This document shows, one piece after another, positions 41,740 through 64,000 of a DNA stretch of 64,000 nt (the first letter of the stretch is position 1; every line of letters begins with the position of its first letter). The notes below the pieces were generated by a model. The model saw only the letters and a list, made by a program, of their open reading frames with translations, was not told the origin of the DNA and did not search any database. Made by a program: the position numbers and the translations under genes. This DNA is from Phlebiopsis flavidoalba (lineage: Eukaryota; Basidiomycota; Agaricomycetes; Polyporales; Phanerochaetaceae). Location: contig JAOCPU010000025.1 in NCBI GenBank assembly GCA_035772785.1, positions 62,001-126,000 on the forward strand, written 5' to 3'.

Positions 41740-42490
41740 ATGCAAAAGTACAATGTGCGTTTCTCGTTAGTGTTTCCCCTCGAGCCGCCACAACTCTCGC
41801 GCGGCTCGAAGGTACTTGTCCCTCGAGCCACTGGAGAGGCCCGCACTCAGGCAGACCATTAGCGGCTACCCTCTCCAGAGAAGACGAAACGAATGAAACC
41901 ATCTAGTCACCTTGCGGCTTGCCCGTACTGCGCTAGGTTGTGTGAGACCATATCTCGTCTAACAACAGCTTCTCGCAGGCCATCAAGCGACTTGAGTGCG
42001 GGGAACCGTGGACTGCGCCAGGCGCCCGAGCTTCGACGGCAAACGTTCCGCGGGGAAAAGGGTAAATGACAGCAGCTGGGCGAGCCCTGGCAACCCCAGC
42101 GATTGGGCTGCCGATTGGCGGTGCAAGTCGACAGCATGCAAAACAGGGCGTTTGCGAGTCACCACGAGACCCTGGGAGCCGGAAGCACTACAACTACTGA
42201 AATAAAAGATAAATGGACAGCAGCTGGGCGAGCCCTGGCAACCCCAGCGATTGGCTGTCCCGATTGTGCGTCGACAGCACGCAAAACAGGGTGTGCGAGT
42301 CACCGCGAGGCCCTGGCAGCCGGAAACACTACAACTACTGAAAGCCGCAGCCTCAAAAAGAGGCAGACGAGGAGAGTAAAGCTAGGAAGAGCGATGTGGG
42401 CGGAGGAGGTCGACGGGGAGTCGGAGGAAGGGACTGGTGAGCGCTGGAGACGGCGAAGTGGGTAGTATTACTTATATATGTCTGCGGCGG
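41740..42490 (-). mobile_element. LTR-like element, copy C (minus orientation), with internal tandem duplication
   Basis: Read on the minus strand, this carries the same blocks as copies A and B. A TATA-like box lies at 42470-42478, then the CCCTGTT(T/C)TGC block, the GCTGGGGTTGCCAGGG block, and near the end CTTCGTGGC-related text, GGGACAAGTACC, a hairpin (41778-41788 with 41801-41812) and GGGGAAAC at about 41773-41779. The middle section is duplicated (42067-42211 and 42212-42345). No open frame for reverse transcriptase or integrase adjoins it, so it is a solo element. The ends are approximate because I could not define a target-site duplication. Confidence 0.6.
42067..42345 (-). repeat. 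Tandem duplication (about 135-145 bp units) inside copy C
   Basis: The two units 42067-42211 and 42212-42345 both begin GACAGCAGCTGGGCGAGCCC and both end ...ACACTACAACTACTGAAA or a close variant. Scattered substitutions and short indels separate them, so the duplication is not very recent. Copies A and B have a single unit. Confidence 0.85.
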
Positions 42491-43440
42491 GTGATCAAGA
42501 GGCTGACGCGCACGTGAATAGGATGTTTATTCGCAACCAAACAAGGACTACGCGGAGTCGGCGGGGCGCGACGCGTCGAGGCTCCCAGGCATTCGAAGAC
42601 GCAACAGCCGCAGTCAAGCCGAGCTGCCCGAAACGGCGAGGACGCCGCGGGCAGACGCCACCTTCGTGGCAAACACCGTGGCACCTTCCAAGGCTATTTG
42701 GCACGTTCCGAGAACCGGCGACTTCGATTGCGAACTACACACTCGTAATTTAAGACACCCGTTCATTCAATGCAGGCAGTCCGCGAGCAAACATTTCCAG
42801 CTATGAGCAGGGCGTGCGGCTACGACCGCATGGTAAGAGAAAGAGTAGGCCCTGGGGCTCGAATCACGACACAGAAACGGATCGCTTCAGGGTGTCCCAG
42901 GCTCGGGAATGACGTGTCTATGGTCCGCGGCGACAGTGAGACATCGTAACCGGCGGTACCAAGTGAGCAGCTCGGTGTGTGCCGCCACAGCCTACATCAA
43001 TAGGTGTGGGGCTGAACCCACCAATTTTTGGTGGTTATCGTGATCTCTTACACGCATAAATGTACGCCAAACAGAGAATGTGACTAGAAAGCCATTCTGC
43101 TCGGGGCGACAAGAATAAGGGGGACACCACCCGCCGGCGGCTGACCGCGTCTCCGATGGCGCTACACGGCCCGTACCCAGCAGCGTCAGAGCCTCGTGAA
43201 GTTGAACATAAGAGTTCTTTCCACCCCGCTGTAGGCTCTCCTATGAAACCACCCACATTCTCTCCCCACTATACGTCTCAGGACCTCTAGCTCATACCTC
43301 CCCGACGCTTGCCAACAGGCCGGACATGCTGTGACTGAGCACGGGATGTTCTCTGCAGATGCGCTATTTTGTGTCTCAACCGACGGACGATCCACGATGT
43401 GGTGTTTCGAAGCTGAAGGCGGTATGATAGGATAAAGGCT
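42491..43440. other. Unassigned interval
   Basis: GC-rich sequence with open frames on both strands (for example 42478-42753 plus strand, arginine-rich) but no recognisable protein. It may belong to the upstream (U3-like) part of copy C. Confidence 0.3.
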
Positions 43441-44150
43441 TGGTTGCACTGATTGATCGGAGGGGCATGCGTGAGTCTCTGCAGTGAGGGCCTAGAACGA
43501 GTAAGTCATCCACACGATTTCGCCGTCGACAGTGGTTTCTCCCACCGTTTGCCCTGTCATCGAAAACGCTGCCTCATATCGGTGGATGTCTCTTGCCTGC
43601 CGATCAGACAGCCTGAAATGGCTGTTTCTCTTTGTCACGCTACTACTGACCACACACTACTGACACACCGAAGGGAAGTATGCTTGCGTTTAGGTGCCCG
43701 GGACCTCCCATGTGCCGATGGATCCGTCTTTGTGCGACGATTTGGTAGTTGGCCTCACCCCTCCTCGTGCCGACCGGTTTACGTGCTGGTCCTCAACGGG
43801 GCTTGGAAGAAAGACACACAATGCACATGACCACAAACCATCGACAGGCCGGATAAGCGCACTGCAGTCGACTTTCCGTCGCGCCTGGAGCTCGACGTCC
43901 CCAGCACAGAGGACGTCGTTTACATTATCTACCAACAGACCTTCGGGCATCTTCTTCGTGCTTCGTGCACGTTTGTGGCAGGTAGGTCAAGGTAGGTTGT
44001 TCTTTCCCCCTCCCTGGATAAGGGCGGGCGTTCATCAGCGTTGGTGACGCTTGTCCTGGCACAGCCTCTTCGTGGCATCCGGGACGACGTACCTCTACGT
44101 TGCAAGACGTAGAGGGAAACGAATGTGCCTTAACTTTTAAGTTCCGTTCT
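43441..44150 (+). mobile_element. LTR-like element, copy G (diverged)
   Basis: The 3' part matches the family: GCCTCTTCGTGGCATCCGGG at 44064-44083, ACGTACC, a perfect 9-bp hairpin (44092-44100 with 44107-44115), then GGGAAACGAATGTGCC, where other copies have GGGGAAACCAACACGC. Upstream, 43893-43900 pairs with 43911-43918 at the place where other copies have hairpin H1. The 5' limit is a guess; sequence before about 43850 has no clear match. Confidence 0.45.
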
Positions 44151-44988
44151 CTCCTCGACCCCGCTTGGTGATGACGCACCCCTCTATGTGTAGATCGTTT
44201 ATAAAGCTACCGAGTCATCAACCCTGTTCTAATTCTCTCATAGCCTCTATGTTTAACACCAATTCTTCATTATGTACCTAGTTACATCGCACTCGCTGAA
44301 AATATCACCTTGCTCATTTGAATGCTGAGATAACTAAGACGATATCCTCGCTCGGAGTTACTGTCGGACTCACTTTCTCCGTACGTTCTCTGGACGACAC
44401 CAGCGAACATCCGTTTTTTCGATGTCCGCTTCAGCAGGCCGAAAGCCTTGCGCTTTCGGAGTCCGTGTGCGGGATGGGAACGAGACTACGTCGTCACGGA
44501 CATTGGCGCGGAATTACGAGCGTCATCCCCGCTTGGCCTCGCCCGGTTCAGCCAAGTCGGTTCAGCCTTCAATTCAAGCAATAAAGGCGGCTCTGCGCTC
44601 TCTCTTCATACAATTCGTCTGCCACGATGTACTTGTCACTCAAGGCCTCAAGCTTCACTGCACCACCTCAAGGCTTCAAACTTCACTTCTCTCGTACAGC
44701 AGCTGCGGAAATGGTGAGTGGCAAGTGCGTCGCTGCATGGTTGGGCATCTCATTGTCACATCTCAACCGTTGACGTGTGTATGTACCGACGACGACCCAG
44801 GCGACGATTCGAGTGGACTACTCAGGCCCACACAGTGCACGGAAAGCACTAGTGTTAGTCACGCTTTGGTAAATCGTCATAATATTTCATGTCCCCTTTG
44901 TGCACGACAGAAACTCATCTCAGCGGCTACCTCTGTCGTATTCTGACTCGTATACTGCAGGTGTCCAAGTCCAGGATACCTCCCACGC
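44151..44988. other. Unassigned interval
   Basis: A TTTATAAAG box at about 44199-44207 followed by a pyrimidine-rich stretch resembles the core-promoter layout of the LTR-like elements, so a further, very diverged copy is possible. No conserved 3' block was found. Open frames on the plus strand at 44318-44946 match nothing I know. Confidence 0.3.
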
Positions 44989-45029
44989 GTGCACGGATCC
45001 ATGGACCTATAGTCCATAGATCCGTGCAC
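44989..45029. repeat. 41-bp near-perfect palindrome
   Basis: Arms 44989-45006 and 45012-45029 are complementary at 17 of 18 positions around a 5-base centre (CTATA). It lies just upstream of LTR-like copy A and may be part of its U3-like region. Confidence 0.9.
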
Positions 45030-45785
45030 CGCCAACGATGGTGTATGCCGACGGCGTAGTGGGTCGCTGGCGCGCAGATGCTGGACGCGCCGCGTCACGC
45101 GTCACGGGTGACCGGTGACGGCGCAGAACGCCGTGACCGCGCATAGCGCGTGACGACGCGTGACGCGGCTTGTTGATCCCAGATAAACGGACTGGTCACA
45201 GCGTCAGCCGCTCAGCCACCCGCCGCGGACGTATATAAACTGACCCGTTTCCGTCCAGCGTCCATCAGGCTCTCTCTCCTTTCTCCCTCATCGACATCAC
45301 CGACTTTCACCTCTCTTCAGTAGTTGTTTTAGTGTTTCCGGCTGCCAGGCGTCCAGCGGTGACTCGCGCTCCCTGTTCTGCAAGCTGTAGACCGAACACG
45401 CCTCGGGTCAGTCCATTGCTGGGGTTGCCAGGGACTGACCCCCCCGTGTCTTTACTTTGTCTGTGGCATGTTGTCCGCTGAATCTTGTATCCTCTGGTTC
45501 TGTCCTCCTCTGGTTCTGTGATCCTCCGACATAACGGTCGAAGCGTCAAGCCACCTGGGACACGCGACACTGGTCGCAAGACGCAGTTGAGTGTTCGAAG
45601 TTCTCTTCTCTGGATGACGAGAGGGCAGCCATGACGGCTGCCTGAATGCGGGCCTCTTCGTGGCTCCAGGGACAAGTACCTTCGAGCCGTTTCGCGCGGC
45701 TCGAGGGGAAACCAACACGCATTTTGTATCGTAGTCTAGAATGGGCGTCCAACAATTAATGAGCATTTTCACTGATAAATCTCCC
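45030..45785 (+). mobile_element. LTR-like element, copy A (reference copy)
   Basis: Order of parts: a CGTGAC/GTCACG-rich segment (45088-45172), a TATA box TATATAAAC at 45232-45240, a pyrimidine-rich probable start region (TCTCTCTCCTTTCTCCCTC, about 45271), CCCTGTTCTGCAAGC (about 45371-45385), hairpin H1 (45406-45414 with 45432-45440), TGTCTGTGGCATGTTG, hairpin H2 (45624-45630 with 45636-45642), CTTCGTGGCTCCAGGGACAA, hairpin H3 (45679-45689 with 45697-45707), and GGGGAAACCAACACGC. This resembles the U3-R-U5 order of a retrotransposon LTR. No polymerase or integrase frame adjoins it. The exact ends and TG...CA termini are not resolved. Confidence 0.6.
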
Positions 45786-46649
45786 GCGAGTGTCTCAAAA
45801 GGAACAAGCAAGTGATACGTTACGGAAATCCGAGTTTTCAGAGGACTTTCCGGTTTCTAGTAATTTAGTATGCCGCACGCAAAGAAGCGAGCGACCGTGT
45901 ACGAAAAGCGACCAGCACATGATACATGTTTTGACTCGCGATGGTCGCGCAGCAGAGCATAGATGTGGCCGAGAGGGGAACGTATCATCTCCTGCTTGAC
46001 TCAATCTATCCTGCCAAAAATCCCCACGCAGGTTGATGTAGATGCAACCACGGTTCAGACGTTCTCCTTCATTTCGTTTGGTTACCGTGGCGGGGGAGAG
46101 ATGTTCAAGGGAGATCTCTAGTGGACTTCTAAGGTATCGACAGATCAACGTGAGGCATTCATATATCACTCGTCGATCGAGCATGCTCACGTCTACGGGA
46201 GGCCATTACATCCTTTCCTTCAGCTGTTGCGATGAATGCACATGCGCGTGTGAGAGGACAGCACACGATTGATTATAAGTTAGGTTAGTATATACGATAC
46301 AGGGTGGGCCGACTCTCGAAGTCGCGCCGTGTGGTCTACGGTATTAGGACCTTTCTTTCGTACAGCTACAGTATGGAGAGCGAGATATGAGAATATATAG
46401 CATATATGCGGAGATCCCAGGTGAGGGGTGTGCCGATAAACAAGACGGACTTAAAGAGTTCTCGTGAGAGGCGCGAGGGATATCGTAAAGGGGCGGGTAT
46501 TTCATATGACTCGTTCCAGGCCGGCAAGCTATGCGCCAGAATACCTCGGGCGGCGGCTCGAGTACAACACCCGCGGCGGGGTGCGGTTCAGACGGGCTCC
46601 CGCGCAGACCCCGACGATGTTACTCAAAAGGCGTGATGGCGACTTCCGT
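45786..46649. other. Unassigned interval downstream of copy A
   Basis: No primer-binding site or retroelement frame is recognisable here. Frames of about 70-75 codons occur on the plus strand, but none is convincing. Confidence 0.3.
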
Positions 46650-48870
46650 CAGAGGCTCAGGCGATCGCCGCACCGCGCCTTCTTCGCCGCTGAATGCTGT
46701 CGCGTGGCGTCGGGGTCTTGCGTTCCCGCCCACGGCCATGCGTCGGCCTGCTTGTATTCAGTGTTCGAAGTGCGCCGTTCGAGTCGTCGCTCGGGTTCTT
46801 GTGAAACGCGCACACGTATAGGCGGCTGCATGAGACGTGCACGCCGTCGCGTTTGAGGCGAGCCCGAGCGGAGCGCATCTTGTTTCGTCGTCGGCAGCGG
46901 AGACGGTTATTGGAGGAAAATGTCGAAGTACGAGGGATCGCGCGCTTGTGGCGTGAGGGTTCTCGGGATGTGGGGCTCATGTGGGATGATTACGTCGACA
47001 TAAGTATCTGTCAGCGTGAATCGTAAAAAGCGACATACTGATGGTAGCCTCCATGTTCGAGTGGGGAGCGCAGGGACAGGCTGTGAGCGTCGACGGGCTC
47101 GCGGGGCTCACGGGCCTCGTCTCATTCGATCTCCAAGAAGGAATCATCCTTTGGGACTTCTTCAGGCTGGGCAGTGTGTACGACTTGTCAACGTAGGCAC
47201 ATCGGTGGCTTGACCATTCCGCAGCTACTAGTGGACCGGCCACGCCCGTAGCAGTTGGCAACGCGTGAGCGGCGTGCTGCTGTGATGCGCGCGCAGCTGC
47301 GGACAGCGGCAGACGGAAACCGGCGACGAAGGCTCTCTTGCTACGACTGCGGCCGGCTACCACGCGAGGTGATGGAGGCGCGCTCCACCCACGGGGGTGT
47401 CGGATGTTGCACACTCTATTGGTGTCTTGGGGAGCCGCACAGGCTGGCCTTGGAGGTCCGGCTATCTACGTCCTGCGGGCCGCAGATACGCGCTGAGAGT
47501 TGTTGCGAAGTCATTCGAACCGCTCTCGTTCGCGCGGTGGACGCTCCTGGTTCGTGTTCGCGTTCCCTTTGCCGCGTCTTGTGTGTAGCTGTGTGATGAG
47601 GGTGGCTCGCATGGCGACTGCTTTTGCCACCACCGGACACGATAAACTCGGCTAAGAGCACGCTCTCGTCGTCCATCCGAGTGAGTCAGTCTTTCCCCCC
47701 TTCACTGTCTGAGCTGAACCCTGTCTGGAAGTCTATCGAGGTCGTCCATCTCCTGCGCCATGTCTTCCGCAACCTTCCACGCCTCCTCAAGCTCGGCTTT
47801 GAGGTGCCTCGACCTGTTCACGTGCCTCTCGCATTCCCCCCTGTGCGCTTTGCATATGCTCGCATTGAGTTTCCGCAGTGCCATCGCATAGGGCAGACGA
47901 GACGTGTACTTCCTGAACACGTTGGGATCCACCCCTGCGCACGTTGATCAAGGACCTGCACAAGCTCCAGCACCCTCAGCCCATCACACGCTACGCTAAC
48001 TTCGGCGAGCTGGGGTCGTAAGGCTGCACGCCGCAGCACAGTCGGATTCGCCACTGGTGAGGAGCCAGGAGGGACTGAAGCAGCATAGTGCGTCGGTGCA
48101 TGTTGAAGCGATTACATAGATTGTGCAAGTGGCTTTTGATCTTGTGAGCATTCTAAGGGTAAGTACTTACTAGGAGTATGATGCTGTTATAGTTATGGTA
48201 GGGACGCACCGAATCCAGTCGCTCCTCTGAATATATTACTCGCCACAAGTTCCTAACTCGATCCAAAGGTCTTGAGACAATAGACGAATAAAACGATTCC
48301 TGTGCCGTCTTGCGTATGCTCCTCGAGACACACTCTCCTGCAGCCTACAGCGGAGACGAGAGCGTCCACTGGGCTTCTCCAGGGGCATCCCGCGCCACGC
48401 AATAGGCACAGAATCAAAGTTTGAATGCCGAGTGGCCCCCGGCGGGTGGGGCCAGCGTCGGCGGTCTTGGCGATGACTTTGACCGCTGGCGCACTGGACG
48501 CTGTGGACGCAGGCCTGATGGGTGTCAGGCCCTCGAGGCTGACCTGTACGCCCTAGTCCACGCATTCCCGTGTGTCTCGGGGCTCGGGCTCCGGTGCTCG
48601 CGGAATGACGAGCGGGGCTGGTAGGGGCTCGAAATCCGTGGTGGTCGGCGAGGTGCACTGAGCCTGCCTGTGAGCTCCGCGTGTCCCTGTTGGGGAGTTG
48701 TGCCCAGAAAAGCTCGCGAGAAGAGGATTCGGCGGGCGATGCGGGGGTCGAGCGCGAATGGCATCGCCTTGATGTTCCCTGTTTTATTCTGCGATTTATT
48801 GTGCGCGGACCTGAAGGGCGCACAGGGCGGGGAGAGGTTGGCGAACGGAGAGAGTCCATGGTCGGGTCGT
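46650..48870 (-). pseudogene. Uncharacterised Arg/Ser-rich protein with a coiled-coil segment, broken
   Basis: I do not recognise a named family. The minus strand has high GC and long overlapping frames in all phases, as expected for an indel-broken coding region. The most protein-like part is 47702-47932: FRKYTSRLPYAMALRKLNAS, ICKAHRGECERHVNRSRHL and KAELEEAWKVAEDMAQEMDD, a short coiled coil. Just upstream, in another frame, is LAEVSVACDGLRVLELVQVL (about 47950-48010). The N-terminal part (48236-48860) is Ser/Arg/Pro-rich. It might be a host gene or a gag-like remnant tied to the neighbouring LTR-like element. No zinc knuckle or protease motif was found. Confidence 0.3.
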
Positions 48871-51188
48871 GGCGTTAAAGAATAAACCCCCGAGCGGAAG
48901 ATCCGTGGACGCCCCGGGCAGTAATAAGGAGTGCCTCGGACGGCGGTGAGGGTGATAACTAGACTTGGAAGAGGGAGTTGAAGCGCATCGCAGGGCGATG
49001 ATGGAGGGGAGACACCAAAGCGCTACAAGACTTTGACGCCCATACGACTATCCCCTTAATTATTCCAGGTTTTCTGGAAGACCCGGTTACCAGGGAACCT
49101 GATTAAAATCACCTCAAGAAAAAAACGACTCTCGAATGATCCCCGTCCAAAACGCGCGACGCGGGAGACGCGTGGATAGGACAGTGTAGCACAACGAGAG
49201 GTTCACAGCGGATGACGAGAAGTAACACACATCATTTGTGATGACGGTTGACGCTACAGCGATGTGCAGTGTGGTCTTGCTGGCATGAGGAGAGAAAACC
49301 ACCAAGATTCCTTTGACAGCGAAGAAGCCACTAACAACATCCGTAACCTCATCAGCCTAGAATAGGCGTACACTGGCCGCGTCGGCTATGCTGTCGTTGA
49401 TGCTCGCGTCGACATCTCCAAATTCCAGGAAAGACGCGTCGCTGTACAGAAAGATGGTAGCCGACGCACATCGCTGGAGAGTTCGATTCTCCGCGTCAGT
49501 GAGTTGCAACGATCGCTGGCTCTCAACCTGGGAAATCCGTACTAGCCGCTCTCCGCCGCAAGCGGACCCTGGGCCTGGGACGTAGAAGCTGTTCTATGCC
49601 AGGTCTGGAGATTATCATCCAATGTTTCCCCCGGAGCGGGAAGACGTACTACTGACATCAGTGGTATTGATCCGATTCGACATACAGTATGACGAGGGGT
49701 CACATCGGCTGCGTTGGGGGCCTCAAGGCCTCAGGTGTCGCATCATTTTACAACGAATATCCGATAGGCGTATTTTGTCCCATCTTCACAAGCGATGCAG
49801 AGACGAGGTCTACCAGGACAGACACCTGCTGCTATCAATATTGGCCCATAGATATGATGAGACAGGCTTACTACAAAATCGTAGTGATTTCTTGAGATGA
49901 GTTAATCAACCCATCAAACCCAGAGGGTGGGGGCAATCATGCTGTTGATAGCCCGCTAATACTTCATCGCAGCCAGATAGTGAGATCATGTATGAGCGAT
50001 GAAGTAGCCTGATAAGGCCGAGCTCACCGATGACCTAGTCAACAGACACAACATCGTACGCCGCGAGGGACGACATGAGTGCTCATCACGAGACCGGTTG
50101 TTTCCACGGAGTTAGATGGCCATACTAAAGATTGGGATAGTATACACTCGGATACCATTAGATAGATCATGTCAGCCGACCCAATAACGTTAAACAGTGA
50201 CCACAAGGTCACGCCATGCGAGTTTGTTCGAACTTGGCTGGAACGTCAATGGCAGTCATACGTGCGGGAAGAGACCGTGAGTGTATAGAAGCACGGAACA
50301 TATGTCATGAAGATCATGGTAAGTATAGAGAGAGAGTAGGTACGTCAGGGAACCTCTCGTATGAGGTCGTCAGAGAAGGAAGAAATCAAAGACACCACCG
50401 TCTCTTGTTTGTCCGTGTTGCGCAAAGGCCTGCGATCCTAACATTACCAAATATCATGAAGCGCCGAGCGGTTTAGGAGCTGTCTCACTTCATGCATGCA
50501 GCGTCAATATTGCGGGGCGGAGAAGGTCCCCTCCCCCCCGGCGAAAAGATTGTGGTAAGGGTTTTTCGTTTTTTGATCTCATTTTTATCGCCTATTCCTG
50601 TCTATAATGGGATTCATTTTACATCAATCTTACTCAAATAAAGCACGTGGGGAAAGTCAGACCTTTGTCGACGGCCAAAAGGCTTGGAAAAGGTTACCCA
50701 TTTCCACGTGTCTCAGCGTGTCTCCGCGCTGTAGGGGCCCCTTGGTTAGGTACTTAAAGGTTACCTTTGTTCACAGTCTTTGTCCTTGAATGAGTTTGAC
50801 TTTGCCACATGGGAAGACTGTGGTAAAAGGAGTGTAAAAGGCATGGAATAGTCTACCCATACCTGATCCAAATTGGGACAGAGATTGTGTCAAAACGAAA
50901 ACCTTGCCCCATGCTTTTCTCCCATTTTCTCCCCAATTATATCGGCGCTTGCATGCAGTGTCTCCGACGCCGATGCGCAGAGAGACTAGGAGGCGTGATG
51001 TGATAACCGTGGTAGGTCGCTCGGGAATATTTGAGTTAGTAACTGAGACTGTTATTTATATAGCGCAAACTCTGCCATACTATCAGTGCGCATTGACCCC
51101 ATCGACATAAGTACACCTAGCCAATGTTTCGTCAAACAACTTTTTACTGTCGCCTTTACCTACACTTATATCTATTTAGACACATTAT
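48871..51188. other. Unassigned interval
   Basis: About 2.3 kb without a recognisable gene. The open frame 49622-49900 (plus) has ordinary composition but no motif. At 49433-49499 a T-arm-like hairpin with a matching acceptor half-stem occurs but is too short for a tRNA. AT-rich stretches with AATAAA lie near 50635. Confidence 0.35.
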
Positions 51189-52768: not shown

Positions 52769-52830
52769 GGTAGTAGTGGGGGTAGTGGACGTGGTGGTGG
52801 CAGTGGGGCGTGGACGTGGACGTGGCGATG
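52769..52830. repeat. GTGGNN-type short tandem repeat upstream of the F-box gene
   Basis: About 60 bases of GTGG(A/T)CGTGG and GGTGGTGGC units, probably in the 5' leader of the F-box gene at 51189-52768. Confidence 0.6.
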
Positions 52831-53153
52831 GTTTTAGTCGAAAATGCACGATGCGGACTGGGTGCAGCAGCGGGAGAGCCTGATCACTCAGCACTTGCCA
52901 AGGGCTAAGTCGACGTCTCAGTACCGCATTACTCCCTTAGCGTCCCGAACTACTAATTCAATGTGGATTAGGGTAGGTACTGTGCCGCAGTCGTCGCGTA
53001 AGTTCCCGCTCGCTCAATTACATGCGCTGCTTTGTAAAGCTTGTGTCATTTGTGTGCGCTGGAAACTGAATCCATAGTTTCAATCCAGTTTCAAATCTAA
53101 TACCGAGCGACTATTACTCACATGAGGCCGGTCCTAAGGTTCAGTCTGTTCTG
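52831..53153. other. Intergenic sequence
   Basis: This lies between the start of the F-box gene and the 3' end of the oxidoreductase gene; both are on the minus strand. Nothing was recognised. Confidence 0.5.
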
Positions 53154-54997
53154 TCATTCGTTAAAGTCGATATCCTCAGAGCGATTCCACCCCAGCCTCT
53201 GCCACATCATGGGAGCATTCCAGTCTTCTGGTGAGTCGGTCATCTCCCCGAACTGTGTACCTATCTGCCAGATTGCATGGTGCTACGCGAGAATGAATGA
53301 GCGATACTCCCCTTCAATGACAATATGATTCATTCTCTCACCAGTCCAATGGAGATCTTGATTCCTGGCTCACCCGGCTCGTAATCCTCCAGAGGTTCAG
53401 CCTGTTTAGATTGGTCTGCTTGATTTCGAATGAGTCTCAAGATGTTCTTAGCAGCGATTACACCCTGGAAACCCCTTGAGCTCATAGGCAAAGTGCACAC
53501 GGTAAGGACGTACCTGATCGTTTGCGTATCTGGCCGCCTTGCTAGCTCCGAATGCATCTGCAGCATCTCCAATGGCGAAGATGTGAGGATGGGGTGCGCT
53601 AAACTCGTCCGGGTTTGCGACGGACGGAGTAGCGATCTGTAGAGTCTTATTCACACGGACAAAGCCCTTGTTGGGGCCGTCTGGAATGACTGATTTGGGA
53701 CTAAAGCTCTCAATGATCTGGGTATTAGGGCGCTGGCCGGTGCACAGCAGCTGTGGAGCTACTCAGAATGACTAAGTATGCACGATGTTTTTGACCACGT
53801 ACCACAAGACCCGCTCGAATTTCTTTGCCTGAGATGGTGCGTAGAACATGCTCTTCACTAGAATGAAGAGCACTTGTGGGCACAGTTGACAGGTCGAGAC
53901 GTTCGCCTAAGATGACGTTCACGCCGAGGTCAGACATGCGCGAAACCACTGGTCAAAGGAAAGGGGGTCAGCTGAGATTTATTCGTCAAAACCGATGCGC
54001 TTACCCTGCTCGTGCATCTTGATATCAAATCTGGGTAATAGCTGCTGTCGTGAATGGAGGAGTGTCACCCCACTTGTCCGGAAATGCCTCCGCAAATGTC
54101 CGTGGCGTACTCTGATATGGGATGAGACGTATGAGAGAGCAGAATGTCCATTACAGCGACTTACGAATGCCTAGAGCACCGCCACCAAACAATCAACACG
54201 CTAGGTGACCTCGTGATTTGCTCCCGGGCTTCGTTCAGAAACTCGATACCCTTAGATTATTCGTCCCGTCATACGGGACAGTCGCGAGACTGACGGATCC
54301 CCATAGATCAATGGGCATCGGGTAGATGTGATCCGAGAGCATAGACAAGATAATCGAATTCGAGCTTGGGTTCTGGAAGCCCTGCGTCAGGGATAGCCCT
54401 GGACAGTGTCAGAGAGCGAGCGTCCATGCCCGTGACAGTAGCTTGAAGAATTTTGTGAGGTCCTTCAACTTTCGGTGGCTGCCAGTTGCCTTGCTCCTCC
54501 GTCCAAAACACGCGCTTGTATGGAACGACTGGCGTGGAAGGTAAGATCATTGACTTTGTTGCGGGCACATAAACTTACAAGCTTTCGGTCCATGGCCGGA
54601 GACGACAGAGTAACGATTGAAGACAAACACATCTATAATATGACATAGATTTATTTTCGCAGTGACAATTTCGTTGCTCTGAAGGGCCAGTACTCACGAT
54701 TCAAATGGCTATGGAAGTTACCCACTTAGCACGGATATGACTGCAAGGGATACCAGGCTTACCTGTTCCTGTCAATGAGCACTACTCTCCAATTTTCGGG
54801 CAAATATTTTTGCAAGTGTTTTGGGCAGCGCCAATACCTGGAAGAGCAAGCTTGAGCGACTACGACAGACAGCAATCTACGCCAACGCTTCCGAATGCAC
54901 GCACCGCCGTAGGATACGCCGAGAACTGCGACCCGTCCGAGAAAGCGAGGTGACCATAGCCGATTTTTCGATGGTGGCGAGGGTTGAGGTCATTGTG
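53154..54997 (-). CDS. AIF/AMID-like FAD-NAD(P) oxidoreductase, multi-exon, with single-base shifts
   Basis: Pyridine-nucleotide-disulphide-type flavoprotein of the apoptosis-inducing-factor-like group (AMID/FSP1 relatives). It starts at 54997 with MTSTLATIEKSAMVTSLSR. RVAVLGVSYGGA is the first dinucleotide-binding turn (about 54940-54965), then ALPKTLAKYLPENWRVVLID (about 54775-54835), VFVFNRYSVVSGHGPKA (about 54575-54630), and VPYKRVFWTEEQGNWQ. TVTGMDARSLTLSRAIPDAG and LEFDYLVYALGSHLPD follow (about 54310-54450). LGVNVILGERLDLSTVP and VLRTISGKEIRAGLVV (about 53810-53930) form the second nucleotide-binding part. NKTLQIATPSVANPDEFSAP and HIFAIGDAADAFG (about 53545-53650) form the FAD-closing GD motif, then AAKNILRLIRNQA and GIKISIGL. 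A final intron (about 53284-53343) leads to a last exon ending in MMWQRLGWNRSEDIDFNE and a stop at 53154. Introns look normal. Frame breaks are single bases, and the region 53960-54300 is poorly readable. Confidence 0.75.
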
Positions 54998-55430
54998 AGC
55001 ATCAAATTCCAATTATATGCGAGGTAGTCGTGCCGTGTTTGAGGCGTTTGTCCGACGGGGACGAACGACTGGTGTCGTCACTCGCTTCGGCAGAGGGCGC
55101 TTGCTAAGTCACCAAGCGACGGCTTGATCATCTTTATCTGATAAATTCTCTTGACGCGGCGGGAGAGACGCCATGCCCTGATTGAGGGCCTGATTGGGCA
55201 AATGTGCCGTGTCCGCCCGTTCGTCGCAAGAGCTGCATGCCTCGCGCGGCCAATTGCAAGGACATGAGCGTATGGATGAGTTGGTCAGCTGGGTCCTAAT
55301 CTGTGCCATATTAAGCTGAGTCACCAGCGTGTGAAATATAGGACGATCCCCTGACGAATAATAACCTGTACGCACGTTTTACACATAAAAGATATCCGAA
55401 CGGATTGTGTTCTTCCCAGAAGATGCGCGA
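54998..55430. other. Upstream region of the oxidoreductase gene
   Basis: This probably includes its promoter. The minus-strand frame at 55109-55375 is not convincing. Confidence 0.35.
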
Positions 55431-55439
55431 GTTAGATAG

Positions 55440-55625
55440 CGGTTGAGGCCCAATGTACACGCGTGGCAATGGCGGAAGTGGAGGGTACGCGGTGTCTGGC
55501 AACTCGGCGACGCAACGGCGGGACTGTTGTCAGCACCGGCTTCGGGATCGTGACTGGTGAAAGGGTAGGGTGAAAATGGTGGGATTAGCAAGAGCGGAAA
55601 CGCCGTCGCCGGAAACGGGGGGTGA
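55440..55625. repeat. Dispersed repeat, copy 1 (partner at 58780-58965)
   Basis: The segment shares ordered blocks with 58780-58965 in the same orientation: GGTGTCTGGCAA, TCGTGAC(T/A)GGTG, and GGTGGGATTAGCAAGAGCGG compared with GGTGGATTGAGCAAGGAGCG. Both read on the minus strand as Pro/Ser-rich text with a PTCQTP or PSCQTP core, so a decayed shared coding exon or a mobile-element end is possible. Confidence 0.5.
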
Positions 55626-56969
55626 GGCTTGAAGACCGAGTGTAGTTTAGCTTTTCAAGTTTTGTACCTTGAGCTGTGGCTGTACTTGCAAGGTGCTTTA
55701 CTTCTCGTGGACAAAATATGGTACTTGCAAAAAAGATCGTATGAACACACATTAGTTTTCCTTATCACTGGTTGTACGAGTATCATCATACCTGTTGAAC
55801 AATATCCATAGTGAAGTACGATGTGGGTGTAGCTTGCCGCTCTTCGTAGCGAATGAATAACCTACAGCCAGCCGGGAGGGGTTGAATACGACGCACTCGT
55901 TTGCCGATTGTCGCACTCAAAGGCGTTGAAATACGCACTAATAGAAAGTCAGAGGGAAGAAAGTAGTATACTGATTACGCATACACTCACATTGTGACTG
56001 GTCAGCACAACCAGACAGTTTCTCAATCTGGCGGCTTCGGGTCATCAATCTTCCACCGAACGTGCGCGCATATCAAAGGAAAGTACGAGATCTTGCGCAG
56101 TATCCACTTCACAGGGGATTCAGCCACTGCAGCCAACGACAGGACATCGACGGGCACGAAATCCCAAGGCGTTAGAGTGTCCGGGAGACGCGTTATTCAA
56201 GCGAGATGGTTAGCACTCTCGACTTGATGGCGTCGAGCAAATGAGGCTTATTGCGCGAGAAAACGGAGGTAGAAAGTGGAGGTTTGTGGGCTAGGACGAC
56301 CAGGAGAACGCGAGCGAGTGTCGAAGCGACGCATGCGCGCGTGGACTCTTGTATATCGAGGCGATTGATAGGGACGCTGACCCTGCCACTCAGGAGTCAA
56401 GCACGACTTAGAGCGACTATTAGGCAAGCGGTGAGAGAAAGCATGTAAACCCCAAGAACATGGCACCTGGCAACGATGCGACATGACCTTGCTCGCTTGC
56501 GACCGATACTTCCCCAATGATTGCAGCACACGAGATAGAATATATCAGACCCCTAGTCATCTACCGATGGGACGGTGATTCACTACAATCCTGAGTAAAA
56601 TTGAGTTCGAGTTGGGGGCAGAATAGCGTAAAGAGAGTAAAGATATCATGAAGTGCGCGTCTTTCCTTTGTCCTTGTTTTGCGGCGGCTTTCGATCCTAA
56701 CAGGGCCAAACAATAGACACACTCGTGCTGAGATGCCTCTCCTGTAACGAACGCATTCTCGAATAGACCGTTCCCTTTGCTTTTTGACTGTGAGGAAGAC
56801 AAACGCGATGAAATTTTAGCTGAGCCTTTGTGAAATGATCACAGGCTGTGCACAACGTGAGTGCGTCGAAACAGATCTATTACTAGCTGCCAGCACGGTC
56901 GGTCAATCTAACGACATCGCTCCAGTGGTAAGAGCTACCTATGTAGATTGTCTAACTACTCATCCTATG
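55626..56969. other. Unassigned interval
   Basis: No gene was recognised. A GCTC...GAGC D-arm-like pair at about 56926-56942 sits just outside LTR-like copy F, but no T-arm follows at the right distance, so it was not called as tRNA. Confidence 0.35.
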
Positions 56970-57560
56970 CATCTTTTAGCGCATGTTGGCTTCCCCTCAG
57001 GATAGCAATCCTTGAGGGTACTAGTCCCAGGGGCCACGAAGAGGCCTGCGCAGGAGCAGCCGTCTACAAAGAAACGACGACCGACCTTCCCTGAGGAAAG
57101 AAACCACCTACCTTCCTTTGCGCTTTATGAGTGGCGGTATCGTGGAGTGATGGTTTGTGGAACGCCTCATTACGCCGTGCTTGAGGTCAATGTAGCCTGG
57201 GACAAGCATTCAGCAAGACTGCCGTAGCGTGGTTTTCCGCCCCCCAATTTTTTGCTCGCTGTGAGGAAGAAGTTAGCCGCCTACAACTAGAGCACTCTCG
57301 CAAAGCAAAAACGAACGCACCTGCAATCTTGGTCCCCGAACGAAGACGAACGTGTACTCAGCTCCCAGGTTCTCGTCCCGAGCGAGCGCCCACGCCGTGT
57401 CCCATCGTCGTCCTACCACTCCCCAACTCTCGAACGCAACGGGTCCACGCTTGAGGATGGCGAACGAAACGCTCTGCCCAAAGTGTCTTGCAGGCCACTA
57501 GGGATAGGGGCACAAATCGCCAACTGGCCCCAAGCGCTCTGCTCGAGCCATCGCTGGATC
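56970..57560 (-). mobile_element. LTR-like element, copy F (minus orientation, diverged)
   Basis: Read on the minus strand, the end matches the family: GGCCTCTTCGTGGCCCCTGG, GACTAGTACC, then a hairpin (56994-57003 with 57008-57018, ten pairs with one bulged T) and GGGGAAGCCAACATGCGC where copy A has GGGGAAACCAACACGC. Upstream (higher coordinates) the match fades. A GCCCCTATCCCTAGTGGCCTG stretch at 57493-57513 (minus) recalls GCTGCCCCTAGTGGTCTG of copy E. The right-hand limit is uncertain. Confidence 0.45.
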
Positions 57561-57999
57561 CCTACCCGGGGGCCTAGGATCTTCCCCGTAAGGGTTTGTC
57601 CCTGGCGTTGGAAAAACGGCCCACACAGCTTGCAAGAGGCGGCGCCATAGGCAGCGGCTCACTGTGTCCGACGTACTGGTGATAGTACGCATGTAACTAT
57701 GCTGTAACGTACCACGGTCCGCTTTGAAGGAGTATCTACGGAAGGAGCCCACGAAGACTGGAAGCAAGTGGATTGGAGGGCTGGGGGAAACAGCGCGACA
57801 GAGTGAAGGCTCAAATACTCTAGTGGAGTGTGTGGCGCTATTCGTTCGAATCTATTGAACGAGAATAAACATGCGCGTCACGTTGATGCTTCGCAACTCG
57901 GAAGTCGGAATCGACCCCCCGACGTGCAGCGCGAGAACACTTTATTTCCGCCCGCAAAAACTACCTAGTCCCATTCGCAGGCTATATAGTATTGAACAC
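57561..57999. other. Unassigned interval between LTR-like copies F and D
   Basis: This may contain the U3-like part of either element. No gene was seen. Confidence 0.3.
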
Positions 58000-58720
58000 G
58001 GCGCGCCGTTGGTGGATGCGTAGATTGCGGATTAGGCCTTCGGTGCAACGCTGGAGGGCGCCTATTCTGTCGCGCGTCAACGCGTCGACGCGCGTCGCGT
58101 CCATGTTTTATTCGCTTTCAACACAGACAGGACAAACAGCAGCATACATCGAGCAGCCATAAATACCCCACTGTCCTGCTCGAAACCCCCAGCAATCTTC
58201 TCCTCTCCTCTCATCCACTATCCCGAGTCCCCACTTTCAGTAGATAATCCTTTTCACCTCGTGCACAAGCCCGGGCGCACGCTGCCGGCGACGTCGAACG
58301 TCGGTCGTCACGCTGGTGGTAATACGCCTGGGCTTGCACCCTTGTTGTCCTCTTCTCTACAGCCGGAGTCGGGTCGCAGTGACTTGCACCCCCCGTGCTC
58401 GGGTCTGGCGGCGGCCCGTTATCTGTCGCTGGGTCGAACTTGTGAAAACGCTACTGTCGCCGGACCCGTTGTAGATAATCCCTTCGCGTTCTGTTTGTCA
58501 GCTATTCCGCTGGTTGGTAAGTCTTTCCTCAACCTCACGTTTTCGTTTTTCCTGGAGGAGGGCGGTCGCTTGGCGGCCGTTCCTGGCGATGTGGAGCCTC
58601 TTCGTGCTCTTCAGGACAAGTTACCCACCAGTGGGGAAACCAACACACGCCTGAATCTTATATTTATCTTATTGTATCAGCATCTTTCTCTGTACAAAAA
58701 TAAACTATTTCTGTTGAGAA
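58000..58720 (+). mobile_element. LTR-like element, copy D
   Basis: Same order as copy A: a GCGTCAACGCGTCGACGCGCGTC segment (58071-58095), a TATA-like CATAAATAC at 58159, a pyrimidine-rich start region, a 12-bp hairpin (58266-58277 with 58325-58336), hairpin H2 (58561-58568 with 58574-58581, three wobble pairs), CCTCTTCGTG, GGACAAGTTACC, a weak H3 (CCCA/TGGG) and GGGGAAACCAACACACGC, then AATAAA at about 58698. The long open frame across it (58261-58917) shows no protein resemblance and is read as chance. Confidence 0.5.
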
Positions 58721-58779
58721 TCTTGAGAACGGCGCGTCAAAGAAGTGCGAATGGCAGAATCAGCTTCGGCCGGGAGGCG

Positions 58780-58965
58780 GCTGTCGGCGGGCACATAGAA
58801 ATGGTAGCGACGGCAGTGCATTTTGGGAACGGCGGGAGTGGGTGTCTGGCAAGTCGGGCAAAGGCGAATGGAGGGTTGGTCGTTAACATGGGTCCTGAGA
58901 TCGTGACAGGGTGGTGAACAGAGTGGAAACGGTGGATTGAGCAAGGAGCGGGGAACACGGTGGGA
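58780..58965. repeat. Dispersed repeat, copy 2 (partner at 55440-55625)
   Basis: See the partner entry for the shared blocks. This copy begins just after LTR-like copy D. The minus-strand reading contains LCPTCQTPTPAVPKMHCRRY, which has a C-x2-C pair but no clear zinc-finger partner. Confidence 0.5.
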
Positions 58966-59869
58966 GGCGCTCCATAGAGGGAGCGTATTGCTCGATACTC
59001 GTGCTTTCGAATTGGAGAAAGACGTGCGCATTCGAGCACTAAGCAATGACATGTCCTATATCGCCAGTATGAGATGATAGTTATAACCGCGTATAGAAGT
59101 TGCGTACTTGTATTCGAGCCCTCGTAGCGGGGGGATATTTGTTATAGCTGTCATGGCCCATGAAGGTGAGGGTCGCCACTTCGAGAACGACTGGAGCATA
59201 GGCTCAAAGTGGAATTCGCACCTCTCTCCACAAAGACATGCGACGATTGAGATATATCAAGACTACACTTATCGAAAAATCTGTAGGATCGCATTCAGAA
59301 AGAGTTTATGAGTTCTGGAGCATAACGTACCTTTCCCAGTGTGTGTGCTTAGCCGGGTTTCTACGCTAAGTCTGGTGTGGGTTTTTGCACAATTGTAAGG
59401 ATGGAAACATGAATACATGTAGAAGTGACTGCTGAGATGGGAAGGGGCACGTACTAGGAGGGGAGGGGGGAGGGTAATTCGCCGCCGTCCACATATAGAA
59501 AAAAACACTGTCGACTTCCCGAAACGGTTCAATACGATTAGTGGATGCGACTGACCCGCAACAACACAAGTTGTTACTGCCAAAAAAACCCATAGAAATC
59601 TAGAGACAGACGAGTGGGCTTCAGTGGCCAGTAGTCGTGAGGCCAGTGGTAGCTGTAGTCAAGTCCGCGCACTGAAAGTTGTGGAAGTGAGAACCTCGCT
59701 CAGGAAAAGATGATGAGGATGAGAATATATTGCAGAGCAAGTCTATCGACGACCCGGCCCCGTGCAGAAAGCTCGATTCGTCCTCGTCGTCCGTGCGCGC
59801 TGTTGTGAGTGAATGGTAGGTCTCCGTCGTCGCATGCAAGCCCTGCGCGCCGCGATAGCCGGCCATCCC
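58966..59869. other. Unassigned interval
   Basis: Short frames only. A G-rich stretch (GGAGGGGAGGGGGGAGGG) occurs at about 59457-59474. Confidence 0.35.
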
Positions 59870-60620
59870 TGCTACGTGACGTGACAGATCGTGACGTGTC
59901 GCGTCGCTCGTGTCGCCAGCGTGATCGCGTGACACACCATGTTGAACTTCCGTTAAAACATTACCTAGCCACTCACGTGCATGCGCTCTCGTCAACCACA
60001 TAAATACCGGGGGGCTCCCGCCGTCCTTGATCTCTCAACCGCCTCCTCATCTACTCATCTCCTATCCTCGTCTAGTCTTCCTGCGGCTGTGTTTTGTAGA
60101 TAGCCACCCCCTCTTCAACCTCCATCGGAATCACGTGACATTAACTAAGCAGTTACTTGCGGTCGCACCACGGGAGCCAGCAGGGCGCTGCCCCTAGTGG
60201 TCTGCTGGCTTCATTGACTTTAGTTGTGGGATGTTGGCTGCACGCGATTTGTATATAGGTGTTGAAGCTCGTCCACCATACGGGGGCCTCTGAACCTCGG
60301 CCCCGTCCCGTGGTCATGCAACTGACTCTTGTAGTATAAACTTTGAGACGTGGTGCTATTTCGCAAGGGGCAGCGAATTCCCCAGCTCAAGACTGCAGGC
60401 CAGAAATCTGGCTTGGCCCGTGCTCGCGAAAACCGCCTGGATTCCGTCTGGATTCAGTTTCGGTTTCAGGTTTTTTCCTTGCTACGCGGTCTATTTCTTT
60501 TCCCCGAGGGTGGGTGTCATGCAGCATGGCGAGAGGCAGCAACATCCCGGCGTGGACCTCTACGTGGTCCTCGGGCACGCAGTAGTGTGAGCCACTGTGG
60601 GCTTGACACGAAAAAAAAAA
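59870..60620 (+). mobile_element. LTR-like element, copy E (most diverged)
   Basis: A CGTGACGTGACAG...CGTGACG segment (59875-59935), a CATAAATAC box at 59999-60007 and a pyrimidine-rich start region are followed by an 11-bp hairpin at the H1 position (60173-60183 with 60202-60212). Then comes GACTTTAGTTGTGGGATGTTGGCTGC, which matches ACTTTGTCTGTGGCATGTTGTCCGC of copy A in the same place. A GGACC/GGTCC hairpin lies at 60554-60570. The CTTCGTGGC and GGGGAAACC blocks were not found, so the 3' part is doubtful. Confidence 0.4.
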
Positions 60621-62597
60621 AGCCAACTCATGCCAAATCTTCTGTACACATCCATATCATTAGTATCTCATGCCAGCATATGTTCTTGAACAATGTATTT
60701 CTCTTGCACATACGCGCCAATTTACTCGTGGCGATCGCCGTCTCGGTATTCCTATGCAAACTCGAATGTGACCAAAGTTTTTTGACCTTTTTCACAGTAC
60801 AATAGTGGTTGAGTCTTGTTTGTGAAAAATAGAGGTTTATGCTGCTGGGCAAATACATCCTATGTTTTCCACGACTGTCTTTACTGTGGTGAGTGTGCCA
60901 GACCCTTCCATCCCCTGTGACGTCAAGAGGAGAAGGCTCCATATAGGTCTATGACGAGGTTTTAAGTACGCCACTGATGTTTTCATCTCATGTCCACGCT
61001 GACGCAGGTGGAAAGTCTTGGTATCTCCAGTCTTTCCGTCTAGCATACGTCCAGCTCGAGCACCCATCGCATATCGCGAGGAGCTCTGTTTGGCTCTGCA
61101 TAAGCCTACGCCTAGTGCTGTCCCGTCAAAAATTTGGCTTCGTGTGCCAGTTTCTACATGTCACGTTCATCCGTCAAGGCACGACACAACACAACGACCA
61201 TCGCCACGTAACGCAAGCGAGAATCCTGCGAGCCGCTTTCCGACATCAGATGCCAGCACTTGTCCCGCGTGAAGATTTCAACAGACACACCAACCCGTTA
61301 CGCTAAATCTCATGATGTGCCACGCATTGTCGGCAGACAGGTCTTCACTCACCCGTCCGTGGACAGCGTCATCGCAAAACGACTGTCACTGCTTGCTTTC
61401 TTGATCTAATAGACGTGTCTGCGAGTATCCCTGCTTCACAGACAAGCAGATCATTGGCAATGCCCAGTGGAAGCTGGAAGGGTTAGGAGAGACCGAGGAG
61501 CCGAGGGCTGGGTCATATGCACGCACGACATGACCTGGGCGGGAGGTTTTCTCATATCGAGCTAGCGTTCTTCGCGTTCTTGAATTTACCCGCTCTCGTT
61601 CGTTGCCTGTCTCGACCTGAGCTCCGCCGAGGAGTATGAAATAAATCTCGGCAATAGCTTCGTTACTAATTGGTAGATATGGTCAGCGATAAGAGAGCGG
61701 GCTAGCGCAGGCGAGGGGCAAATTACCTCAGACAAATGGAGACATCGCGATCAGTAGACTAGTTGGCGCACGAAAACTAGCTCCTGTACACTCAATCCAT
61801 GTCGCCATGGTACCGAGAAAATTCGTCGATTGCGAAAGTGCGCCTGCATGAGGCCTCGAGAGCCCAGAGGGAAGAAATTGCTAATCAGAGCAAGGGGATA
61901 TGTGACTAAGAGATCGCCGCCTGTGATGTGGCTCTTGTTCTGCAACACCTTCTAGACATCTAACACCGACCAAATACGGTGAAGAACGCCCCCGGGTCTA
62001 AGTGAACTCTCAACTCATCGATCAGAGTGAAAGAGTCCGTCAGCTGAGTTATCCACAAGCATGCCAAAATGGCGTCGTGTTAACGTTCCCCCAAAACCCC
62101 CGGCATGTTTTTGCGATGCTGAGGTGGCCTTATATCACAGTACGTCAGCCACATTTTTCAAATTGCTGCAATTCCTTCACAAAGCGCGAACTCAAGCCGC
62201 CGGGTCGGAAGTCCAAGGGCGAAGGTTGATGTTTCGGATTATTTCTACATATTTTAAATTTCACATTCTTTTCAGTGCAAGCCCAAACCTTCCTTGTGTG
62301 CATTTTATCTACGCTGGATGACGGACTCAATCAGCGGTCTGGCTTTGGGGGGCCCCCATGCGGCTCAGAAATCCTGTGATGTCTCCACGTCCTTTGTTGC
62401 GGCCATTCCTTCACGGCCGTGCCTTCCAGATTCGCAAGCAAGCTCTAAGCGCTTTCAGACTGAGAGCTAGGAGTTTCTATCGAAAATTGTATTGCCCGCA
62501 TAACTAGATGGTAACGAATGCGAATTACCCTACACTCAGGTGTACCCCACCCGCGAGTCTCTGGGCACAAAGGCGCTGTATCACACGCGACTGACTT
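60621..62597. other. Unassigned interval
   Basis: No recognisable gene in about 2 kb. The plus-strand frame 60977-61306 and its shifted neighbour 61018-61272 have plausible but unassigned composition. Confidence 0.35.
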
Positions 62598-63065
62598 TCA
62601 CCCAGTCGTGCGATGGCGAGACATGCGTGCATCCCCGAAACTCGTTAATGTCAATATTCGAATAATCCTTTTTTGAAGACTTGTGCAGTCGTAGTGGCAA
62701 TCATTCGCTCGACCACTGATGGATTGGTTTTGGACGATGGTATGTGTTCCCCAGGTGAGTGATATGTTTACCGCGTCCATTGCGCCCACTTGTTTTTTGT
62801 GTTGTTCACGCAGCTCTGATTGAATTACTGCTACCGTTCCTTCGGTATATTTAAATTTCAAACATATATTCAGGAACCGGCTATGCCACGAGACATTGGG
62901 GCAGTAAACCCATCCTATAGCAATAGGGAAATGCTTCAACTGAGCACGCTTCCGACCAGCGCCCTGTAAAACGTGTTCGCTTGTGAACGTACCGCGTTGA
63001 ACAGAGCATGGTATGACGTCGGATCGTTTGAATTTCTGGCAGAATTCCCCATACTCAATGGTCAC
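62598..63065 (-). CDS. Unrecognised open frame, 155 codons
   Basis: I do not recognise this. It is one of the longer uninterrupted frames in a region where real genes are usually broken, and its composition is balanced (for example MTIEYGEFCQKFKRSDVIPC, RFLNICLKFKYTEGTVAVIQ). No signal peptide, membrane helix or catalytic motif stands out. It overlaps or abuts the upstream part of LTR-like copy B. Chance is a serious alternative. Confidence 0.25.
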   Translation of the reverse strand: MTIEYGEFCQKFKRSDVIPCSVQRGTFTSEHVLQGAGRKRAQLKHFPIAIGWVYCPNVSWHSRFLNICLKFKYTEGTVAVIQSELREQHKKQVGAMDAVNISLTWGTHTIVQNQSISGRANDCHYDCTSLQKRIIRILTLTSFGDARMSRHRTTG

Positions 63066-63785
63066 GCGTCAGGCCCGTTCACAGCTCACCCCGCCGCGGA
63101 GCCTATGCTATAAACGCTAACCCGTCGTTTCGACCAGCACCAATTCCCACAGCAGGCAGTAACTCTCCCCATACTCCTCACCTCATGTCGAACAACATCG
63201 TGGAGGTGCTACACTATCCACCATTCTTGCAGTAGGTGTGTTCAGCTGCTTATCCTGGCTAGCCAGGCGTCACCGTAACTTTTCTATTGCACACGGTGAC
63301 CTTCGCGCGCCCTGTTCTGCAAGCCCATGTGACCGTCGCACCTGGGGTTCAGCCCCATTGCGGGGTGGCCAGGGGCTGATCGAACCTCACTGCGTTCTTC
63401 TTCTCATTGTGTCTGTGGAATGCTTGTCCGCTATGAATCTATGTATCCTCTGTTCTCTGTCCTCCTTCTTGTTATGTGCTCCTCCGCCCATTCACTGGGT
63501 CGAAGCCTCAAGCCACCCAAGACCGCACCTTGCAACAAGCCACGGTCGCATCAGACGACGCAGTTCTTTTCTTGAGTTGTTTCACTCTATCTTCTCGCTG
63601 GATTCGAGGGCAACCGCGATGGTTGCCTGAAGTGCGGGCCCTCTTCGTGGCTTATCACGGAGGACGAGTACCTGCCGCTCTCGAGCTGCTCGCCGCAGCG
63701 TGCACGGGGAAACCAACACGCACCTTGCCCTACCGTATGTGTCCGATAAGTCGTCGTTACCAATAAAAGATTTCGTCCACTTGTC
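63066..63785 (+). mobile_element. LTR-like element, copy B
   Basis: Closest relative of copy A. It has a TATA-like GCTATAAAC at 63108-63116, GCCAGGCGTCACCG, CCCTGTTCTGCAAGC (about 63310-63324), hairpin H1 (63349-63356 with 63372-63379), TTGTGTCTGTGGAATGCTTG, TCGAAGCCTCAAGCCACC, hairpin H2 (63609-63615 with 63621-63627), GGGCCCTCTTCGTGGC, GAGTACC, a weak H3 and GGGGAAACCAACACGC, then AATAAA at about 63762. No coding region of a retroelement adjoins it within the window. Confidence 0.6.
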
Positions 63786-64000
63786 TCGGAATAAATGAGT
63801 GTGCCTCTGTCTCAAACAGAAGTGTGAAAGCAAACATTTGTACCAAGTTCGACTAGTAAACTCATATTACTTTCAAGCTTGTAGTCGCCGCGTCCCGTTG
63901 GGGACTACAAGCTGTTACACTGATGTAGACCTTTCCTGGGGCAGGTGACGCATCACCTAATGGCACCGACTCGGCTGACCGCGCTCAGAATCCGCCATAA
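63786..64000. other. Right edge, unassigned
   Basis: Nothing was recognised apart from a short inverted pair CTTGTAGTC/GACTACAAG at about 63879-63912. Confidence 0.4.

Follow-up and report, generated by a model that had tools for sequence, protein, structure and literature searches.

Hepatitis delta virus (HDV)-like ribozymes occur in fungi in a variant form, in which the cleavage-site pair is C-G, a loop E takes the place of part of the P4 helix and an extra nucleotide separates P2 from P3 (PMC5640933). In that report, 230 such variants were counted in 26 fungal species, and two fungal examples were shown to self-cleave in vitro at the base of P1 (PMC5640933). Here, the comparison is extended to a 64,000-nucleotide stretch of the basidiomycete Phlebiopsis flavidoalba (the window; bases 62001-126000 of contig C25, in a genome of 36.3 Mb and 129 contigs). 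An original prediction had placed in this window a family of elements resembling long terminal repeats (LTRs), here called copies A to G. The 3' domain of these copies has the topology of the HDV ribozyme together with the three marks of the fungal variant. The repeated units are most likely a non-coding RNA family with a self-cutting RNA of this known type near the end, and such a ribozyme would explain why the hairpins go on pairing while their letters change. Unless a contig is named, positions are those of the window.

A 3' domain with HDV ribozyme topology

All seven of the predicted copies exist. Copies A, B, C, D, F and G score 57 to 110 bits with the covariance model described below, all six being in its training set, and copy E, which had been listed as probable, lies outside that set and reaches 25.3 bits (E=1.3e-4). 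A sensitive self-comparison linked A with B, C and F, and a nucleotide search of the genome seeded on A returned 15 matches, confined to C25, C52, C1 and C24. When these matches were read side by side with D, E, F and G, the common part proved to be the last ~115 nt only. The short blocks said to be shared by the family are distributed unevenly. CTTCGTGGC is exact in A, B, F and G and occurs once more, also exactly, at 42662, away from the copies; GGGACAAGTACC is exact in A and C; GGGGAAACCAACACGC is exact in A and B, with one mismatch in D and two in F; CCCTGTTCTGCAAGC is exact in A and B, with two to three mismatches in C; and TGTCTGTGG is exact in A and B only. Given this distribution, the upstream blocks characterize one subfamily, and the 3' domain alone is common to the seven.

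Sixteen copies were extracted, of which 15 were aligned for training and one, E, was excluded as degenerate. On this alignment, RNAalifold predicted 26 pairs, and double changes are present in 15 of these. With a cut-off of E<=1e-5, the covariance model built from the 15 copies (R1) recovered 50 copies from 249 kb of genomic sequence, including 35 outside the training set. The best value among decoys was 0.21 (160 prokaryotic and viral loci, 1.27 Mb), these being 80 + 80 loci from among the matches listed by loose pattern scans and chosen for holding part of the motif. Genome-wide, GGAAACCAACACGC at no more than one mismatch gave 62 matches versus 4 for a reversed control, and CTCTTCGTGG..GGAC gave 30 versus 6 for its control. 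The domain was found at E<=0.1 in 26 of 28 pattern sites sampled for spread, the exceptions being L054 and L056.

The claim that stems change letters yet stay paired is borne out, as covariation lies well above chance. Changes on both sides are seen in 30 of 32 base pairs. Over the whole structure, 92.4% of cells are paired, compared with 76.4% in shuffled alignments, which ignore the relatedness of the copies, and 29-51% in slid controls, which allow for it. The covariation score is 0.489 versus 0.230, and none of 500 shuffles reaches any of five measures; the alignment was fitted to the helices other than P1, so their counts are inflated and those of P1 are not. P1 was recognised outside the model, as bases preceding P2 that pair with bases directly after P3, and was left out of model building. 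All lettered positions of P1 (6 or 7 of the 7) are paired with their own mates in 35 of the 50 copies, versus 6.3% when mates are swapped between copies less than 75% identical.

The resulting helix order, P1-P2-P3-P1'-P4-P2', is a nested double pseudoknot. The first base of P1 is C in 44 of 50 copies and its partner G in 49, and the pair itself is C-G in 43, U-G in three and another combination in four; the C-G mark of the fungal variant is thus present. An AGUA faces GAAA in columns kept in 44-49 copies as read from the sequence (A, G, U and A in 49, 44, 44 and 44; the opposing letters in 48-49), and we take this AGUA/GAA arrangement to be the loop E motif. The column of the extra nucleotide between P2 and P3 is filled in all 50 copies (G in 40, A in six, C in three and T in one). 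L3 is likewise conserved, with U, C and G in 49, 48 and 48 copies. A longer, hairpin-forming J1/2 is seen in 42 copies; eight short copies (C1:178-236 kb and C60) are without this hairpin. In alignment A3, the second base of L3 and the second base of J1/4 are pyrimidines that co-vary same-with-same (UC.. with AC, UU.. with AU). This pair is not Watson-Crick, has exceptions that include L055 and L034, and possibly reflects shared descent or a tertiary contact.

Copy A, which is complete by eye, is arranged as follows:

45232..45237, + strand: TATA-like box, 376 nt upstream of P1
45316..45607, + strand: upstream body (TTCAGTAG...), with a predicted long-range stem and conserved boxes
45608..45722, + strand: ribozyme domain, HDV-like of the fungal variant (covariance model, coordinates rechecked)
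45608-45614 / 45665-45671, + strand: P1, placed by eye, as the model misplaces it owing to an insert
45624-45630 / 45636-45642, + strand: J1/2 hairpin
45646-45650 / 45718-45722, + strand: P2
45651, + strand: extra nucleotide between P2 and P3
45652-45654 / 45662-45664, + strand: P3, with L3 at 45655-45661
45675-45678, + strand: AGUA of loop E, with P4 at 45679-45707
45712, + strand: putative catalytic C, with predicted cleavage 5' of 45608

Some results count against a family of working ribozymes. The 40-64 kb part of the window is without an Rfam family match at E<=2, and Rfam applied to 12 loci at E<=5 gave two weak matches to unrelated families and none to HDV, so that the curated cut-off of the Rfam HDV families was not reached. 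A strict intactness test was passed by 23 of the 50 copies (18 of the 35 non-training copies); L042, L048 and L055 are examples of intact copies. The pass rate would also suit an HDV-like fold kept without catalysis, for example as an exapted 3'-end stabiliser, as would the first P1 base, which is C here and G in classic HDV. The inferred catalytic-position C, presumably equivalent to that of classic HDV, is nevertheless kept in 48 copies, and the two exceptions fail 5 and 4 of the six strict criteria. Moreover, the fungal variant, shown to cleave in two species (PMC5640933), itself has a C-G first pair among its marks, and a purely structural role appears unlikely. Group I introns and hammerheads were also considered, by their motifs; Rfam gave no fitting match.

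Upstream bodies, putative promoters and splice-donor-like motifs

In addition to A, the window holds one copy that is off by a single J4/2 base (F) and five that are damaged (B, C, D, E and G):

41755..41880, - strand: ribozyme domain of copy C, with L3 and J4/2 altered; TATA-like motif at 42478; upstream part duplicated internally (42057-42202 / 42204-42343)
44013..44131, + strand: ribozyme domain of copy G, with one base extra in loop E; GGTAGGT at 43981 and 43991
56976..57095, - strand: ribozyme domain of copy F, with P1 7/7 and J4/2 GAAG for GAAA; GGTAGGT at 57112
58158..58653, + strand: copy D, with CATAAATA at 58158, body, GGTAAGT at 58516 and ribozyme domain at 58551-58653 (one base extra in loop E); AATAAA beyond the domain at 58699
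59999..60636, + strand: copy E, with CATAAATA at 59999, body and degenerate ribozyme domain at 60502-60636, J4/2 carrying an inserted A-run
63107..63726, + strand: copy B, with TATA-like motif at 63107, body at 63228-63597 and ribozyme domain at 63598-63726 (P1 damaged); AATAAA beyond the domain at 63762

A core promoter had been proposed for the whole family. TATA-like motifs do lie upstream of A, B, C, D and E, but the patterns tried found none in the 700 nt upstream of F or G. The box of copy A is kept in the alignment rows of H, I and K and altered in J. Motifs were counted around 36 representatives of the 50 copies, for some of which fewer than 700 nt were available upstream, and compared with expectations from resampled sequence. 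TATAWA occurs upstream in 12 of 36 (1.9 expected), ACGCGT in 12 (5.3 expected), and AATAAA within 120 nt downstream in four (1.0 expected).

The selection on structure that the original prediction had suggested finds support in the 3' domain and only weak support in the body. The body comprises conserved boxes and one predicted long-range stem, and double changes affect 4 of its 34 predicted pairs. Several further results sit poorly with a family of mostly non-coding transcription units: minimum-free-energy folding of two bodies is ordinary, with single-sequence z-scores near zero; most of the 36 representatives were found without TATAWA or AATAAA; the looser donor pattern GT[AG]AG occurs in 7 of 36 versus 3.8 expected, which is not significant; and, judged by eye, L045 and L048 have coding-looking sequence, located some 0.5 kb or more upstream and ending in donor-like sites. 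Because of this upstream sequence, not all copies are free-standing RNA genes.

The last observation points to another arrangement, in which the ribozyme is part of larger genes, opening their introns and competing with splicing, instead of ending a dedicated RNA gene. Within 60 nt 5' of P1, the splice-donor-like GGTRNGT occurs in 9 of 36 representatives versus 1.7 expected; it is weaker at -120 to -60 (4 versus 1.5) and not enriched at -300 to -240 (2 versus 1.6). L036, L037, L038, L039 and L040 carry motifs resembling CAG/GTGAGT no more than about 30 nt 5' of P1, the clearest cases being CAGGTGAGT immediately before P1 in L036, L037 and L040. By contrast, A, H, I and the two C52 tandem copies carry CAGTTGAGTG at that position, which is not a GT donor, and TAG within 40 nt downstream is not enriched (19 of 36 versus 16.8). 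As an account of the family, the intron arrangement is possible but doubtful. Each of the two arrangements, at the end of a dedicated RNA gene or at an intron start, may hold in different subfamilies.

Near copies differ by non-triplet indels, for which reason a family of ordinary protein genes was rejected. Translated comparison of the copy regions gave 444 matches, 202 of them outside the masked ribozyme units; these 202 are segmental or tandem duplications, local repeats, P450 exons common to C25:28-30 kb and C1, and a single short and weak open reading frame match, and no protein recurs beside most copies in this comparison. The P450 exons of C25:28-30 kb are related to those of C1:2373-2383 kb (L031), are in tandem on C1, and lie a few kb from ribozyme copies in both places; a P450 exon in the window had 37 related proteins in a protein search. 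The short weak match (E about 1e-7 to 1e-9) joins C25:4.2-4.4 kb, C25:40.2-40.6 kb and C52:16.6-16.9 kb, of which the first and the third place are ~1 kb downstream of a ribozyme copy. For an exon labelled BAR-like by eye, a protein search matched a single fragment.

Duplication, P4 inversions and spread

The window reaches into a ~7.5-kb inverted segmental duplication (C25:120505-128292 / C25:150714-158238, 78-80% identical; window 58505-64000 and beyond). The duplication carries the D, E and B ribozymes as a set, together with their counterparts, and its edge cuts D. Against a flank median of 0.85, the ribozymes of D and E are 0.95 and 0.92 identical between the arms; that of B is 0.84, and the bodies of E and B are 0.83 and 0.72. 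Between the duplicates, recent constraint on the ribozyme is thus modest, and none is visible on the body. The arm within the window looks like the decaying one.

A rival reading is that the copies are solo LTRs or a non-autonomous LTR retroelement family, with incidental hairpins. In its favour, some copies have a TATA box and a downstream AATAAA, and A, H and I have a ~600-700 bp unit in common with little flank homology; unit borders are diffuse between copies. Matches to reverse transcriptase families number at least 22 (RVT_1) and at least 23 (RVT_2) in the genome, these counts being lower bounds, and none was found on C25 or C52. The predicted lack of an attached polymerase gene holds on C25 to this extent, the searches being lower-bound ones and the window itself being without a Pfam scan. 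Among the contigs with model-confirmed copies, only C1 (2,557 kb) and C4 (442 kb) have a reverse transcriptase match, and each lies >50 kb from every copy or pattern site seen. On a quick domain tree, copies from the same contig region tend to cluster, with 21 label changes between regions versus a shuffled mean of 31.4 and 0 of 200 shuffles as low, although 25 of 47 inner branches are unresolved, those from C24 remain apart, and near-copies by themselves could produce such clustering. Together with the ribozyme fold of the covarying 3' domain, these results speak against the LTR-like label, and an LTR origin is very improbable. They favour local duplication with occasional spread between contigs over a retroelement, some movement beyond local duplication being indicated by the unit of A, H and I.

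Tandem ribozyme domains in the same orientation, 89-242 nt apart, occur at six loci (L041, L034, L033, L053, L049 and L020, the second domain of L020 being degenerate). Closely related ribozymes at L016:5445, L051 and L059 lie 5-12 kb from the ends of C25, C4 and C80. A search of six contig ends, 500 bases each, and of the first 10 kb of C25 revealed no telomere-like tandem run.

The original prediction had also raised a mechanism that rewrites both arms of a hairpin together, and for this there is direct support. In two pairs of near-identical copies, H/I and the C52 tandem copies (by locus, L019/L020 on C25 and L027/L028 on C52), the P4 of one copy nearly equals the reverse complement of its counterpart, with one mismatch in H/I and small indels in the C52 pair; 0 of 20,000 shuffles match as well in either. 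Of 102 close pairs, drawn from the 42 copies in which both P4 anchors could be located, 20 have an inner P4 that matches better as the reverse complement and 25 one that matches better directly. Loop inversion is a described footprint of template switching (PMC8794818), and the P4 inversions probably arose in this way. If pairing were kept mainly by this known mutational mechanism (PMC8794818) and not by selection on RNA, such inversions would be expected. The unpaired letters of L3, loop E and J4/2 are, however, among the most conserved, which would not be expected from template switching, and P1 and P2 are pseudoknotted helices and not adjacent arms of one hairpin. Mutation as the main keeper of pairing is thus quite improbable; template switching would instead act together with selection.

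Proposed explanation and comparison with known systems

Taken together, the copies quite probably form a large family of mostly non-coding transcription units with a fungal-variant HDV-like ribozyme near the 3' end; the individual steps that follow are each less sure. Judging from the TATA boxes, the units would be of the RNA polymerase II type. Transcription would start behind the TATA box, and a body of ~300-450 nt would be transcribed together with the ribozyme, which is predicted to cut the chain immediately 5' of P1. Cutting would leave the body with a 2',3'-cyclic phosphate end, freed of the ribozyme and of a poly(A) tail, if there is one. The CAG/GTGAGT-like site near P1 in some copies suggests that cutting may compete or cooperate with recognition by U1 and the spliceosome. 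The family would expand mainly through local duplication, with some spread between contigs, and its P4 hairpins undergo rewriting as well, probably through template-switch inversion.

A more far-reaching version, which we regard as improbable, is that of a self-processing RNA gene family which spreads as a selfish element based on RNA, the fungal counterpart of retrozymes with an HDV ribozyme. TATA-driven units would then release body RNA with a 2',3'-cyclic phosphate, and the loci with tandem ribozymes would yield RNA with a 5'-OH and a 2',3'-cyclic phosphate, which a host tRNA ligase could circularise.

A genome with at least 50 copies would make the cellular role of fungal HDV variants testable by RNA sequencing. 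Useful features for such work are the promoter-bearing units, the splice-donor-like motif beside the predicted cut, and the naturally broken sister copies, which can serve as controls. In addition, the P4 inversions offer a natural test bed for the template-switch evolution of hairpins.

No description of the repeated unit was found among the literature titles and abstract openings searched, a set that largely leaves out subscription journals. Classic HDV ribozymes have a P1 of 7 bp, a P3 of 3 bp and a catalytic C that precedes N-A-A, and the P. flavidoalba domain agrees with them in these features and in topology; it differs in its first base and in having loop E. Retrozymes are plant elements bearing hammerheads. 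With these and other ribozyme-bearing LTR elements the present family has in common that its units are repeated and non-coding, bear a motif predicted to self-cleave and, in some copies, have tandem ribozymes, whereas the retrozyme motif is a hammerhead and the hosts are plants. Ambiviruses likewise bring delta-type ribozymes into fungal systems, but these reside in circular RNA virus genomes (PMC10162972). The closest relative is the fungal HDV variant. Judged against the text of its report, and so perhaps not real differences, the nucleotide between P2 and P3 is mostly C there and mostly G here (40 of 50), the hairpin J1/2 is longer here (42 of 50), and some of the present copies lie inside a repeated TATA-promoter unit with a body (PMC5640933). 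The nested double pseudoknot, the C-G first pair of P1, loop E and the extra nucleotide between P2 and P3 are the same in both (PMC5640933).

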